Source of the DNA: Acidiphilium sp.
Lineage (GTDB): Bacteria > Pseudomonadota > Alphaproteobacteria > Acetobacterales > Acetobacteraceae
Reading direction: 5' to 3'
NCBI GenBank assembly: GCA_028688905.1
Contig: JAQTXH010000002.1
Location: 83,061-147,060 of the forward strand
DNA length: 64,000 nt
Part shown: piece after piece, positions 8,722 to 13,023 of the stretch
Layout: each line of letters opens with the position of its first letter
Numbering within the stretch: position 1 is the first letter of the stretch
Program-made: the position numbers and the translations under genes
The notes under the pieces: generated by a model
Database searches by the model: none
The model's input: only the letters and a program-made list of their open reading frames with translations
What the model was told of the DNA's origin: nothing

Positions 8722-8982
8722 ATGCAACTGGCCAAATACGTGAAATTCCGCGAGGAACAATTCGGCGGCGTGCTGTTCGAAACCCAGTCGGAAAAAGTGT
8801 TCACGTTGAACGCCGCCGCCGTCGCCGTGGTGCGCGAACTGCCCGCCGGCGGCGATGCCGGTGCCATCGCGGCGCGGCTGAAGCAACGGTATCGGGATCC
8901 AGCCGGGGCGATCGAACGGGACGTTGCCGCCCTGATCGATGAGTTGCGCGCCAAGGGTCTGATCGTCGAGGCGACGGCGTGA
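8722..8982 (+). CDS. PqqD-like peptide chaperone (RiPP recognition protein)
   Basis: PqqD-family protein of 86 aa. In PQQ, mycofactocin and many radical SAM RiPP pathways such a protein binds the leader of the precursor peptide and presents it to the radical SAM enzyme. Visible family features are KVFTLNAAAVAVVRELPAG followed by a helical domain ending in IDELRAKGLIVE. ATG 8722 is preferred because GAGGAG lies 9 nt upstream; the upstream in-frame GTG lacks such a site. It is the first gene of a forward operon; its stop overlaps the GTG of the next gene. Related to PqqD/MftB, but pathway not assignable to either. Confidence 0.85.
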   Translation: MQLAKYVKFREEQFGGVLFETQSEKVFTLNAAAVAVVRELPAGGDAGAIAARLKQRYRDPAGAIERDVAALIDELRAKGLIVEATA

Positions 8983-9959
8983 CGCCAGCGGCCGACGGTT
9001 CCCAGGCGGTGCCGGTGCCGTCGGCCTCCAGCGGGCTACGCTCGCCGCTCTATATGGCGTGGCAGATCACCAACGAGTGCAATCTCGCCTGTATGCATTG
9101 CATTGAGGAAAGTGGACCAGGTAAGGCCTTCGCCGATGAATTGTCCGACGATCAGACCTTCGCGGTGTTGCGCCAGATCATCGAACTCGACGTGCCGTAT
9201 CTGTCGTTTTCCGGCGGTGAGCCGATGCTGCACCCGCGGTTTTTCGACATGGTCGCGTATGTTTGTTCGCACGGTGCCCAGCTCAAGATCGAAACCAACG
9301 CCCATTTTCTCGACCCTGTATCCTGCGCCAGGCTGAAAACCCTGGGGGTCAAGGCGGTGCAGGTCAGCCTCGATGGCGCGTCCGAGGCCAGTTTCAACCG
9401 CATGCGGGTGCGTGGCGACTTCAACCGCGCGGTCGAGGGTGTGCGCAATCTTCGCGCCGCCGGCGTGCCGATCGAGATCAACTATAGTCCGAGCCTGTTC
9501 AGCGCGCATGAAGCGGGTGCCGCGGTCGATCTCGCCTATGAGCTTGGCGCACAGAGTTTCTACTCCGGGCGCACCATGTACACCGGCAATGCGGTCAAGA
9601 CCTGGCAGAAACTCACGCCTTCCGAGGCGCAGTACGCTGTCCTGTTCGACACTCTGCGCGCCAAGGCGCTCGAATATGCCGGGCGCATGCGGGTCGATTT
9701 CCATGAGATGGGCCTGCTCGACGAATTGCGCTACCGGCTGCGCAACCCCGCCGCCCTGCTGATCGTGCTGCCGAACGGCCTGGTCAAGCTGATCAACGCG
9801 CTGCCCTTCACCTGTGGCGATCTGCGGACGCAATCCCTGAGCGAGGTGTGGCAAAACTTCCAGCGCGCCTGGCAGGACCCACGCGTCGCCACCTTCGTCG
9901 ACGATCTCGACCGTGACCCCGCCACCACCGCACAGCTGCACCGATGGATCGCGCTCTGA
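8979..9959 (+). CDS. Radical SAM peptide-modifying enzyme 1
   Basis: Radical SAM protein (326 aa, GTG start). The [4Fe-4S]/SAM motif is CNLACMHC (residues ~29-36), followed by SFSGGEPML and VSLDGASE. The C-terminal region has only a remnant of a SPASM-type auxiliary cluster domain: one cysteine in TCGDLRTQSLSEVW rather than the usual set. It overlaps the PqqD-like gene by 4 nt and the ubiA-like gene by 16 nt, consistent with one operon. It is a clear paralogue of the two radical SAM proteins downstream (shared ADELS and VPYLSFSGGEP segments). Most likely modifies the small peptide encoded in this operon. Confidence 0.85.
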   Translation: MTPAADGSQAVPVPSASSGLRSPLYMAWQITNECNLACMHCIEESGPGKAFADELSDDQTFAVLRQIIELDVPYLSFSGGEPMLHPRFFDMVAYVCSHGAQLKIETNAHFLDPVSCARLKTLGVKAVQVSLDGASEASFNRMRVRGDFNRAVEGVRNLRAAGVPIEINYSPSLFSAHEAGAAVDLAYELGAQSFYSGRTMYTGNAVKTWQKLTPSEAQYAVLFDTLRAKALEYAGRMRVDFHEMGLLDELRYRLRNPAALLIVLPNGLVKLINALPFTCGDLRTQSLSEVWQNFQRAWQDPRVATFVDDLDRDPATTAQLHRWIAL

Positions 9960-10906
9960 ACCTGCCGCACGCGCGCACCGCGCGCACCGCATCGCCCGTT
10001 TTGGGGCGGCTGATCCGTGTGTTCAGCCTGGTGCGCTACCGGTTCTTTCTCTACGCCGGGCTGCTGCCCTACCTGCTGGGCGCGGCCTTCGCCTATCGGG
10101 CCACCGGCCATTTCGCCGCGGCGCTGTTCTGGAGCGGTCTGCTCGGCATCATTCTCGCCGTGATCGGCGTCGAGGCGTTCAACGAATATTTCGACGACCG
10201 GATGGGAACCGATCGGGTGTTCAACCCGCAGGACATCCCCCCGATGTCCGACCTTGTGCTCTGGACCGGCGTGGCCGGATTCGCCGGCGCGTTCGGGTTC
10301 GGCATCTATCTTGCCCTGCACGCCGGCTGGCCGGTCCTGGTATTCGCCGCACTCGGCGGAATGGCCGCGGTATTTTATGTCGCGCCGCCGATCCGCTGGG
10401 CCTATCGCGGCCTGGGTGAAACCATGATCGCGCTATCCTACGGGCCGTGGATGGTGCTGGGCAGTCTTTATCTGCTCGCGCATCGCCTCACCGGCACCGC
10501 CTTCGCCGCCTCGTTGGTGCCCGGCCTTCTGATCATGGCGCTCGCGGTGGTCAACGCGATCCCGGATTTCCATCAGGATCGGCTGGTCGGCAAGCGCAAT
10601 CTGGTGGTGCGGCTGGGCCGGCGGCGCGGCGTGTTCCTCTATCTCGGGCTGGCCAGCACCGGCCTGCTGATCGTGCCGCTGGGCGTCGTGTTGGGCTGGT
10701 TTCCGCCCGCCAGCCTCGCCGCGCTGCTGGCGCTGCCCTGGCTGGTCGCGAGTGCCCGGGCCGCGCGCACCACCTACAACACGCCGCGGTTGTTCATTCC
10801 GGCGATCCGCGCGATCGTGACCTGCTACGCCGTCGCGGTCGGGCTGTTCACCCTCGCGATTGCCTTGACCGCCATCGTCCAGGTGTTCATGGGGAGCGGC
10901 CTATGA
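9944..10906 (+). CDS. UbiA-family prenyltransferase (MenA-like)
   Basis: Polytopic membrane prenyltransferase (320 aa) of the UbiA superfamily. Both Asp-rich Mg/diphosphate motifs are present: NEYFDDRMGTDR (~residues 80-91) and NAIPDFHQDRLVGKRN (~200-215). Eight or more hydrophobic helices follow the usual pattern. Such enzymes attach polyprenyl chains to aromatic acceptors such as 1,4-dihydroxy-2-naphthoate. No other quinone genes are present. It sits inside the radical SAM operon, overlapping the gene before by 16 nt and the gene after by 4 nt, so its acceptor is likely linked to the peptide pathway. That link is inferred. Confidence 0.85.
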   Translation: MDRALNLPHARTARTASPVLGRLIRVFSLVRYRFFLYAGLLPYLLGAAFAYRATGHFAAALFWSGLLGIILAVIGVEAFNEYFDDRMGTDRVFNPQDIPPMSDLVLWTGVAGFAGAFGFGIYLALHAGWPVLVFAALGGMAAVFYVAPPIRWAYRGLGETMIALSYGPWMVLGSLYLLAHRLTGTAFAASLVPGLLIMALAVVNAIPDFHQDRLVGKRNLVVRLGRRRGVFLYLGLASTGLLIVPLGVVLGWFPPASLAALLALPWLVASARAARTTYNTPRLFIPAIRAIVTCYAVAVGLFTLAIALTAIVQVFMGSGL

Positions 10907-11895
10907 ACAGACCAATGAACGGGATCGAATTGCTGGGCGCGCCGCTGTTCATCTCCTGGCAGATCACGCGTGACTGCGATCTCGCCTGCGTGCATTGCTG
11001 CACCGATTCCGCCCCCGGCCATGGGCTGGCCGATGAATTGACCGAAGCCGAAGCATTGGATCTGGCCGATCAAATCGTTGCCGCCGAGGTGCCGTATGTC
11101 ATGCTGTGCGGCGGCGAACCCTTGCGGGTGCCGCATTTCATCGCCCTCGCCGAGCGTCTCGGTCATGCCGGAGTGATGCTGAAAATCGAAACCAACGGCC
11201 AGTTGCTCGATCAGCCGATCATCGACCGTCTCGCTTCCCTGCCGATCCGCTCGATCCAGATCAGCCTCGATGCCGACACCCAGGACGTCTACGGCCGCCA
11301 GCGCCCCGGTGCCTCGCTTGCCAAGGTCCACGCGGCCTGCCGCGCGGTGCGTGAGGCCGGCATGCCGCTCGAAGTGACCTTCGCGCCGACCCGGCTGAAC
11401 ATCGATCAACTCGACGCGGTCATGCGTCGCGCGGCCGCGCTGGGTGCGTTCCGATTCAACACCGGCAGGCTGATGCGGATCGGTCGCGCGGCACGGCTGT
11501 GGCACAAAATCCGCCCCGACGAAGCAGACGAGGTCAAATTCCGCAACACACTCGACAGTTACACCGCAGGTCTTGTGTCATCTGGCGTTGACACAAAAAT
11601 GGAGATTTGTTATCTTCCCTTTACGGTGGCTGATGGACTTGATCAAAATCGTGATAAACCCCCCGCAACCATGCTGATCATGCCCAATGGACTGGTAAAA
11701 GTCGTTGGAGCCTCCGGTTATATTTGCAGTGATCTGGGTCGATCCAGCCTGCTGCATGCGTGGGACGATTATCGTGCGGCCTGGCACGATCAAGCGGTGC
11801 TCGACGACATCGATCGTTGCATCACCGATGAGGGTTTTCAGGCGAGGGCGAATGACTGGATTTCAACATTGAACGGAGTCAACCAACATGCGTAA
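10903..11895 (+). CDS. Radical SAM peptide-modifying enzyme 2
   Basis: Radical SAM protein (330 aa) with CDLACVHC (~residues 25-32), LCGGEPLRV, IETNGQ and ISLDADTQ. The start at 10903 overlaps the UbiA-like stop (ATGA). Only one cysteine (ICSDLGRSSLLHAW) remains of a SPASM-like C-terminal domain. It is paralogous to the enzymes encoded at 8979 and 12061. Its last 8 nt overlap the start of the putative precursor peptide gene, a tight coupling between enzyme and substrate. Residues after ~225 are encoded by locally more AT-rich DNA than the rest of the gene. Confidence 0.85.
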   Translation: MNRPMNGIELLGAPLFISWQITRDCDLACVHCCTDSAPGHGLADELTEAEALDLADQIVAAEVPYVMLCGGEPLRVPHFIALAERLGHAGVMLKIETNGQLLDQPIIDRLASLPIRSIQISLDADTQDVYGRQRPGASLAKVHAACRAVREAGMPLEVTFAPTRLNIDQLDAVMRRAAALGAFRFNTGRLMRIGRAARLWHKIRPDEADEVKFRNTLDSYTAGLVSSGVDTKMEICYLPFTVADGLDQNRDKPPATMLIMPNGLVKVVGASGYICSDLGRSSLLHAWDDYRAAWHDQAVLDDIDRCITDEGFQARANDWISTLNGVNQHA

Positions 11896-12046
11896 CACGA
11901 CCGAAACCGTGCAGGTCAAACCGGGATCGTCTGACGATGCCATTCAAAGCCGGACCCAGGCGAATGAGTTGCCGCTCTGGGTTTCGCCGCGCCTCGAGGA
12001 CGTGTCCGAGCAGGTGATGGCGCAGCCTTATATTCGCTTCACCTGA
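11888..12046 (+). CDS. Putative RiPP precursor peptide (52 aa)
   Basis: Unannotated small gene between two radical SAM genes. The 52-residue product is hydrophilic in its first 28 residues, then reads LWVSPRLEDVSEQ and ends VMAQPYIRFT. The W-x-x-P-x-L-E pattern resembles leader segments bound by PqqD-type recognition domains in other RiPPs. The short tail with Y48 and F51 is a plausible modification core. A GGAG site lies 8 nt upstream of the ATG, which overlaps the previous gene by 8 nt. No cysteine is present, excluding a sactipeptide-type thioether from its own Cys. Role is inferred from context. Confidence 0.7.
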   Translation: MRNTTETVQVKPGSSDDAIQSRTQANELPLWVSPRLEDVSEQVMAQPYIRFT

Positions 12047-12060
12047 GTCCGGGCCCAGCC

Positions 12061-13023
12061 ATGATGAGCGGCCGCTCGCTTGATAATTATGCCTCGCCGC
12101 TCTTCCTTGCCTGGCAATTGACCAATGGTTGCGACGCCGGGTGCCTCGCCTGCTGCGAGGAATCCGGCGTCGGCCATGCATGGCGCGACGAACTCACCCG
12201 CGATCAGGCGCTCGAGGTCACGCGTCAGATCATCGAGGCCGGTATCCCCTATGTCGCGTTCGGCGGCGGCGAACCGCTTAGCGTCGCGCATTGCTGGGAG
12301 GTGTTCGCGATGCTGGCCGAAGCCGGCATCGCCATCAAACTGGAAACCAACGGCAGCCTGATCGACGAAGCGACCGCCGCCCGGATCAGCGAACTCGGGA
12401 TCGACTGCGTGCAAATCTCGGTCGATGGTGCTACCGCCGCAACCCATGAGCGCATGCGCCCCGGTGCCCGCTTTACCGACGCCATCGGCGCGATCGACCA
12501 TCTGGTCGCCCGCGGCATCGCACCGCAATTCGTGTTCGTGCCCACCCGGCTTAACATCCATGACCTCGTGCCCGCGTTCGATCTCGCCGTGGCCCGTGGG
12601 TGCAGCGCCTTCGTCACCGGCCCGCTGATGCGCCTCGGCCGTGCCGCCGCCAACTGGGATCAACTCGTCTGCGACAACACCACGTGGCAAACCGCCGTCA
12701 CCGCCCTGCGCCAGCACGCCACCGCCATCAACACCCCTATCATCCTGTCGATCTACCCCTGGGATATCGTGACCGAATTGCAAACCCGGCTCGACAGCCC
12801 GCAAGCCATGCTGCTCGTAGTGCCGAACGGTAAGGTCAAACTGCTGAACGTCCTGCCGTTCGCCCCGGCCGACCTGAAACACGACGGCCTGGCGGCTGCG
12901 TGGCACGCCTATCGCCAAGCCTGGCGCACCCCAACCGTGCGCGACTTCATCCTGCGCTGCCAAACCCAACCCAACCTGCTCCGCCACGCTAACGAAACCT
13001 GGCCCCTGGCTTTTACTGCCTAA
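12061..13023 (+). CDS. Radical SAM peptide-modifying enzyme 3
   Basis: Radical SAM protein (320 aa) with CDAGCLACC (~residues 22-30), AFGGGEPLS, LETNGS and ISVDGATA. It is paralogous to the two upstream radical SAM proteins but has lost the C-terminal cysteine seen in both (APADLKHDGLAAAW at the equivalent place). It starts 14 nt after the putative precursor gene, with ATGATG and a weak ribosome-binding site. It is the last gene of the forward operon; the CBS gene converges on it 26 nt downstream. Confidence 0.83.
   Translation: MMSGRSLDNYASPLFLAWQLTNGCDAGCLACCEESGVGHAWRDELTRDQALEVTRQIIEAGIPYVAFGGGEPLSVAHCWEVFAMLAEAGIAIKLETNGSLIDEATAARISELGIDCVQISVDGATAATHERMRPGARFTDAIGAIDHLVARGIAPQFVFVPTRLNIHDLVPAFDLAVARGCSAFVTGPLMRLGRAAANWDQLVCDNTTWQTAVTALRQHATAINTPIILSIYPWDIVTELQTRLDSPQAMLLVVPNGKVKLLNVLPFAPADLKHDGLAAAWHAYRQAWRTPTVRDFILRCQTQPNLLRHANETWPLAFTA

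Follow-up and report, generated by a model that had tools for sequence, protein, structure and literature searches.

We characterized a six-gene operon in a 64,000-nucleotide stretch of DNA from Acidiphilium sp. (contig JAQTXH010000002.1; hereafter, the window) that encodes a PqqD-like peptide chaperone, three radical S-adenosylmethionine (rSAM) enzymes, a MenA-like prenyltransferase of the UbiA superfamily and a small precursor peptide. The operon belongs to a conserved system that combines a ribosomally synthesized and post-translationally modified peptide (RiPP) with a prenyltransferase, and it most likely makes a lipoquinone. We put at about 0.6 the probability of a prenylated lipid of the quinone type as the product; that it is menaquinone (vitamin K2) itself is a more tentative reading, which we hold at somewhat less than even odds. 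In the scheme we envisage, PqqD would bring the PqqA-like precursor to the rSAM enzymes, which would modify the invariant AQPYIRFT sequence, most likely first at the Tyr that lies in register with the Tyr used for pyrroloquinoline quinone (PQQ). An aromatic head group of the quinol type would arise from the modified peptide and be released by proteases that other parts of the genome encode, and the MenA-like enzyme would add a long polyprenyl tail. The result would be a quinone of the membrane, most probably menaquinone or a closely related naphthoquinone, that serves respiratory complexes. Such a scheme could constitute a third menaquinone pathway, in which rSAM enzymes build the naphthoquinone ring from residues of a ribosomal peptide before MenA-like prenylation, a possibility that we advance with reserve. 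Our inferences comprise every chemical step, the cleavage of the peptide and the assignment of the quinone. What computation shows is that the gene set is conserved and has MenA-like and polyprenyl-synthase partners, that almost all of the searched carriers lack the known menaquinone genes, that the operon does not overlap with futalosine genes and that some copies are linked to respiratory-chain genes.

The original prediction, made from the window's sequence, described six tightly packed genes, and both coordinates and Pfam matches bear this out. All six genes are open, lie on the forward strand in the predicted order (Table 1), overlap by 4 to 16 bases at the first four junctions and leave a 14-base gap at the last. 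Pfam scores were ~77 bits for each of the three rSAM enzymes and 75 bits for UbiA, and rSAM1 and rSAM3 share 32 and 37% identity, respectively, with rSAM2. A single genome scan with an alignment of the three rSAM enzymes gave 120 confirmed matches, the best 80 of which yielded 66 related loci from Pseudomonadota, Elusimicrobia, Omnitrophota and Planctomycetota. Since 49 of the 66 loci keep all six genes in the order PqqD-rSAM1-UbiA-rSAM2-peptide-rSAM3, the arrangement is not a product of chance. A shorter version, peptide-PqqD-rSAM-UbiA, occurs in 7 loci (Omnitrophota, Planctomycetota and one labeled "bacterium"), and the best relative of the single rSAM in these minimal clusters is rSAM1. The other 10 comprise a divergent full cluster (L114), a cut-off locus with a distant rSAM elsewhere (L115), and eight that are cut by contig ends or, in one case (L091), disrupted.

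The prenyltransferase and its genetic partners argue for an isoprenoid quinone. All 44 copies scanned (of about 64; L087 and L102 were omitted from the alignment and L114 was shortened) matched MenA models, the hits being to eight NCBIfam models of the MenA type or related to it. By sequence as well as by fold, its nearest solved structure is UBIAD1, the menaquinone-4 synthase. When flanking frames were clustered, a polyprenyl-diphosphate synthase family of 38 members emerged, its identity being confirmed by family models for five of them; one member (L058) lies far from the operon and was set aside. The synthase adjoins or is near 37 loci, standing just before PqqD in 32 and after UbiA in 5 minimal clusters, within 45 bp in four of these and 1.8 kb away in L106. 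It is non-adjacent in 19 Pseudomonadota loci with upstream sequence and in L096, L102, and L103. The system shares with isoprenoid quinone biosynthesis of any kind a quinone-type UbiA enzyme, as judged by MenA-model matches that for the window copy fall below equivalog cut-offs, and a long-chain polyprenyl-diphosphate synthase.

Two routes to menaquinone are known, both derived from chorismate, and the carriers of the operon nearly all lack their marker genes. The search took in 48 carrier genomes: the window's own and 47 others, which were reached through 48 loci (L068 and 17 of the 66 loci lie outside this set). MenD scored over its cut-off in one, weaker matches in most carriers being other thiamine-diphosphate enzymes by score, and MqnA/D gave a single weak match. 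UbiA proteins were found in all 48 genomes. The operon's copy is the sole one in five carriers (G905, G907, G908, G911, and G915). A further 13 carriers have one or two additional UbiA proteins, which match heme O synthase models; these 5 and 13 carriers all lie outside the named Pseudomonadota. The heme O assignment covers 20 non-operon UbiA proteins from 18 genomes that include those 13, and all 20 match heme O synthase models (best E-value 3.7e-72), with other UbiA families matching some of them much more weakly; five of those 18 genomes hold further, unclassified UbiA hits.

Rhodopila globiformis, an operon carrier (L055, G873), is reported to produce menaquinone-9 (MK-9) alongside ubiquinone-9 and rhodoquinone (PMC12542754), and its reaction center is described as having menaquinone at QA (PMC9640540). 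We found no MenD over the cut-off and no MqnA/D match in its genome. The four other UbiA proteins of R. globiformis exceed cut-offs, as a heme O synthase, a 4-hydroxybenzoate transferase, a bacteriochlorophyll/chlorophyll synthase and a PRK08238-type protein, and none of the non-operon UbiA proteins matched a MenA model at an E-value of 1e-15, leaving the operon's enzyme as the only MenA-like one. The carrier Rhodothalassium salexigens (L060), which presumably contains MK-10, likewise showed neither MenD over the cut-off nor MqnA/D in its genome. For Rhodovibrio, the genus of carrier L068, MK-10 is given in the literature (PMC7179689). A survey of 26,264 genomes published in 2026 lists four species with measured menaquinone whose genomes lack the pathway. 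It infers that Gloeobacter uses an alternative route and finds no quinone pathway at all in many lineages, with the warning that errors may underlie some of the discordant cases (PMC13386864). Gloeobacter is not among the 66 loci drawn from the best 80 of our 120 matches. An older survey reported neither menaquinone genes nor MenA for its two Elusimicrobia genomes (PMC3914697), and a text search of a paper on quinone repertoires in Pseudomonadota returned nothing for Rhodopila, Rhodothalassium, Rhodovibrio, or Elusimicrobia (PMC11707229). Our searches of the open-licence literature in PubMed Central did not find the peptide core, the gene combination with hydrogenase and RiPP, or a third or novel menaquinone pathway.

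Elusimicrobiota provided a comparison within one phylum. Among 198 genomes, in which the operon was called by rSAM1 at an E-value of 1e-60, 17 carry the operon, 25 a COX1-family protein (three of them, G986, G1020, and G1024, on weaker matches of 187 to 220 bits), nine have two full-length MqnA/D proteins, and three have a weak single PF02621 protein. The operon tracks the heme-copper oxidase, which is present in 14 of its 17 carriers vs. 11 of the 181 other genomes (p = 2.5e-12), and in none of the 198 genomes does it occur together with the full-length MqnA/D pair. Of 25 oxidase-bearing genomes, 14 have the operon and seven the Mqn proteins, covering 21, and the exclusion within this group gave p = 6.9e-4; both are Fisher p-values that ignore relatedness. 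In this respect the operon resembles the two known menaquinone routes, which are reported rarely to coincide (PMC13386864). The weak single PF02621 proteins (L149/G978, G1068, and G1083) occur in three of the four oxidase-bearing genomes that have neither system, and together with a similar protein in carrier G915 they may perhaps represent a further quinone-related family.

Some copies of the operon also sit beside respiratory-chain genes. Three of the seven minimal clusters (L102, L104, and L105) lie near genes for NQR/Rnf-type complexes or complex I. In L104, NQR/Rnf-type genes stand directly upstream of the cluster, with RnfC, RnfD, and NqrF models over cut-off and other subunits below; in L105, they stand upstream with one small frame between, RnfD and NqrB being over cut-off and other subunits below. 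NrfD-type membrane subunits follow UbiA at 7.4 kb in L104 and 3.4 kb in L105, and the latter locus also has an ArrA-like arsenate reductase (1299.7 bits; cut-off 1600). The genes nuoA to nuoE begin 4.9 kb downstream of the L102 cluster, a neighborhood that L103 resembles by eye, and L113 lies beside sulfhydrogenase-type subunits that score below cut-off. A survey of Omnitrophota describes 4-hydroxybenzoate polyprenyltransferases, with no accompanying chorismate lyase, in classes that include genomes with complex I (PMC10066038).

The precursor peptide has an invariant C-terminus. We identified the copies by their similarity to the window peptide, with operon position playing no part. The peptide is encoded in all 62 loci whose sequence reaches its site. 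The terminal AQPYIRFT is present in 63 of 63 copies and MAQPYIRFT in 62, the window's included. The 22-residue region takes 33 distinct versions; Trp is kept in 62 and the Pro three residues after it in all 63. The window peptide itself had no match in Pfam, NCBIfam, PHROGs, or the PDB. From Trp to the end, the region equals that of Klebsiella PqqA in length, and in the ungapped alignment W, P, D/E, and Tyr fall in register. PqqE is reported to join two residues of PqqA, of which this Tyr is one (PMC10906245). At the position of the PqqA Glu, 62 copies have Met and one has Thr. As for the rSAM enzymes, the CX3CX2C motif is kept in 54 of 55 copies of rSAM1 checked, 53 of 53 of rSAM2, 52 of 52 of rSAM3 and all seven of the minimal rSAM. 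At most two cysteines lie beyond position 200 in 52 of 55, 40 of 53, 49 of 52, and six of seven copies, respectively, and there are never more than four, so full SPASM-type auxiliary clusters have probably been lost. The AlphaFold model of rSAM1 (mean predicted local distance difference test, 92.7) has SkfB and PqqE as its best PDB matches. The minimal rSAMs, rSAM2, and rSAM3 each come out as a single supported group in a quick tree built from 73 chosen rows; three changes are needed for rSAM1. In Elusimicrobia loci such as L084 (8072-8512), the PqqD frame begins just where the polyprenyl synthase gene ends, which suggests an N-terminal extension of about 60 residues on PqqD.

The view that the operon follows the RiPP logic of PQQ and mycofactocin while being neither agrees with our scores, since both systems proper are ruled out by matches below curated NCBIfam cut-offs. 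With PQQ biosynthesis (pqqABCDE), the operon shares the PqqD-like chaperone (whose Pfam match passes and whose NCBIfam match falls short; Table 1), the PqqE/SkfB-like rSAM fold, and a short precursor containing W-x-x-P whose Tyr stands 17 residues beyond the Trp. It differs in having three rSAM enzymes with few C-terminal cysteines, a MenA-like prenyltransferase, and a peptide that no NCBIfam model matches and that lacks the Glu of PqqA; the PqqE model gives rSAM1 77.8 bits against a cut-off of 381, with rSAM2 and rSAM3 lower. With mycofactocin (mft), it shares a PqqD-like protein, an invariant peptide C-terminus, and rSAM enzymes for which MftC is the best or nearly the best match (104.6 to 115.4 bits). 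Here, however, MftB reaches 24.1 bits vs. a cut-off of 33, the best MftC score of 115.4 compares with a cut-off of 265, the peptide is unmatched, and a prenyltransferase and a polyprenyl synthase are present instead. Like the Men and futalosine pathways, the system has a MenA-like last step, a polyprenyl-diphosphate synthase and a link to oxidase-bearing Elusimicrobiota in which it does not coincide with futalosine genes; it differs from them in its apparently peptide-derived head group and in the near absence of MenD and MqnA/D.

A number of observations weigh against a lipoquinone product. The chemistry that would lead from a peptide to a naphthoquinone is not obvious, and neither a protease nor a methyltransferase is among the operon genes. 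The peptide consensus has four identities in 22 positions with PqqA (shuffle p = 0.03), so that this weak likeness is a lead only. The window UbiA scores 99.9 bits against a MenA cut-off of 264. Carrier G884 has MenD over the cut-off, and G915, a divergent operon carrier, has the partial PF02621 match (32.8 bits); draft genomes also miss genes. The UbiA classification extends in Pseudomonadota to R. globiformis and part of R. salexigens, and other carriers there have unclassified UbiA proteins; R. salexigens has a second MenA-like prenyltransferase (L145, 111.2 bits), and Pseudomonadota carriers are expected to make ubiquinone too. In Elusimicrobiota, where relatedness was ignored and MenD was not in the search, the lack of overlap between operon and Mqn over all 198 genomes is not significant (p = 1.0), four of the 25 oxidase-bearing genomes have neither system, and three of the 17 carriers show no match to an oxidase. 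By score, the NQR/Rnf-type genes are a blend of both types, Rnf is not known to use quinone, and the family-search link to respiratory-chain genes was established in three of seven minimal clusters and not in the other four.

Several alternative products can be set against the lipoquinone. The operon might make a prenylated peptide or small amino-acid-derived redox carrier, anchored in the membrane as a lipid cousin of mycofactocin, instead of a free quinone. The presence of prenyltransferase and peptide in one operon even in the minimal version, the lack of a protease gene, and the invariance of the whole AQPYIRFT, beyond what one or two aromatic residues would require, all fit this idea. UbiA enzymes, however, are known for small aromatic acceptors, and R. 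globiformis has menaquinone without MenD, MqnA/D, or another MenA-like enzyme; we therefore consider such a carrier unlikely, though the strongest of the alternatives. Less probable still is that the RiPP genes make a PQQ-like cofactor while UbiA acts separately on another substrate, the two being merely co-regulated. PqqD, rSAM, and peptide alone do form a known cofactor-making set, and the MenA-like scores are below cut-off, but the UbiA gene is flanked by rSAM1 and rSAM2 in 49 of 66 loci and immediately follows the rSAM in all seven minimal clusters, and MenD and MqnA/D, from which MenA substrate is known to come, are missing from nearly all of the carriers searched. Small peptides also occur with rSAM enzymes and prenyltransferases in peptide natural products, and the operon could by that token produce a prenylated antimicrobial or signaling peptide; a core invariant over four phyla and an operon that tracks oxidases in Elusimicrobiota make this very improbable.

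The location of the operon in the window raised a further alternative. The original prediction placed it back to back with hypC, and indeed hypC runs leftwards on the minus strand from about 8500, divergent from the operon at ~220 bases. Left of the operon lie hup/hyp genes on both strands, with Pfam family matches for HypA, HypB, HypC, HypD, HypF, HupH, a HupD-type protease and a cytochrome b subunit, and HypE named from AIR-synthase domains plus gene position. A peptide cofactor or modification specific to the uptake hydrogenase would suit this adjacency and the relatives of the window's hup/hyp genes near L061, L059, and L092. These are 3 of 66 loci, 35 of which have at least 4 kb on both sides, and the gene set proved common without hydrogenases. 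The large-subunit family PF00374 was matched in 26 of 48 carriers, mostly by short partial hits, and in 22 not at all; a full-length large subunit (>675 bits) was present in 10, all among the 17 named Pseudomonadota carriers, and absent from 38. By contig and position, it lies near the operon in two of those 10 genomes, the window's and G879. A hydrogenase-specific cofactor was accordingly rejected, and we give it scarcely any credence. The earlier proposal of a new peptide-derived redox cofactor or lipidated peptide used with the hydrogenase thus comes close to our conclusion in its first two parts, and its hydrogenase role is not supported. Quinone is the electron acceptor for uptake hydrogenases of this type, so a loose link to the hydrogenase remains conceivable, and in the window bacterium the proposed quinone might also accept its electrons. 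R. salexigens, a carrier, is described in its genome paper as being without hup genes (PMC11762602). The only perfect FNR/FixK-type box in the window (one match vs. 0.06 expected in 64 kb) sits between hypC and the operon. Shared anaerobic control may therefore explain the hyp neighborhood, with both perhaps forming part of an anaerobic regulon. Among the related loci scanned, the only other perfect box was that of Rhodothalassium (L060), 145 nt before the PqqD match.

Table 1. Genes of the operon and the regulatory box in the window, with the basis for each assignment.
Feature	Position	Strand	Basis
PqqD-like peptide chaperone (RiPP recognition element), 86 aa	8722..8982	+	Pfam PF05402 49.7 bits, cut-off 23.4; NCBIfam PQQ_PqqD 37.9 bits, cut-off 46
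Radical SAM enzyme 1 (rSAM1), PqqE/SkfB-like fold, CX3CX2C kept, few C-terminal cysteines	8979..9959	+	Pfam, NCBIfam, AlphaFold model
MenA-like UbiA-superfamily prenyltransferase	9944..10906	+	Best NCBIfam matches are MenA models, below cut-offs; fold nearest UBIAD1
Radical SAM enzyme 2 (rSAM2)	10903..11895	+	Pfam; one supported group in quick tree
Precursor peptide, 52 aa, PqqA-like spacing, C-terminus MAQPYIRFT	11888..12046	+	Conserved end among copies
Radical SAM enzyme 3 (rSAM3)	12061..13023	+	Pfam; one supported group in quick tree
Perfect FNR/FixK-type box TTGATCTTGATCAA	8590..8603	.	Divergent region between hypC and operon

Downstream of the operon, a B12-binding rSAM protein of family TIGR04190 (13736-15493, forward strand; 620.6 bits, cut-off 500) is encoded beyond a CBS-domain gene on the opposite strand; the TIGR04190 protein has no relative among the 66 loci. 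Around the window organism the set is rare: in samples (13 genomes of the genus, 120 of the family, 385 of the class and 398 of the phylum, its own counted in each), matches of the type given by the rSAM trio were confined to its own genome (561 to 566 bits), other above-threshold matches being far weaker (best, 147.5 bits). A search of a plasmid collection with rSAM2 matched 67 records; the 20 listed are MftC, TIGR04053, NirJ, generic or unannotated rSAM proteins at identities of 36.5% or less, and the peptide core matched nothing in that collection. One Omnitrophota genome (G909) holds two minimal clusters, L104 and L113, with unlike neighbors. A metagenome bin labeled Bordetella parapertussis carries the operon (L065), and since its tree neighbors are environmental Pseudomonadota the label looks wrong. 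In L109, L081, and L091, one of them in a complete genome, the matches are split or out of order, owing to sequencing error or decay.

If the proposed lipoquinone is indeed the product, the operon would represent a new route to a molecule at the center of respiration and would join RiPP chemistry to core respiratory metabolism; we know of no earlier example of a lipid electron carrier that derives from a translated peptide. A third menaquinone pathway of this kind would also account for the orphan menaquinone of purple bacteria, among which Rhodopila globiformis is a cultured carrier strain, and for the missing quinone routes of some Elusimicrobiota and Omnitrophota. The operon is a concrete candidate for an alternative menaquinone route of the sort that the survey of 26,264 genomes infers for Gloeobacter (PMC13386864).

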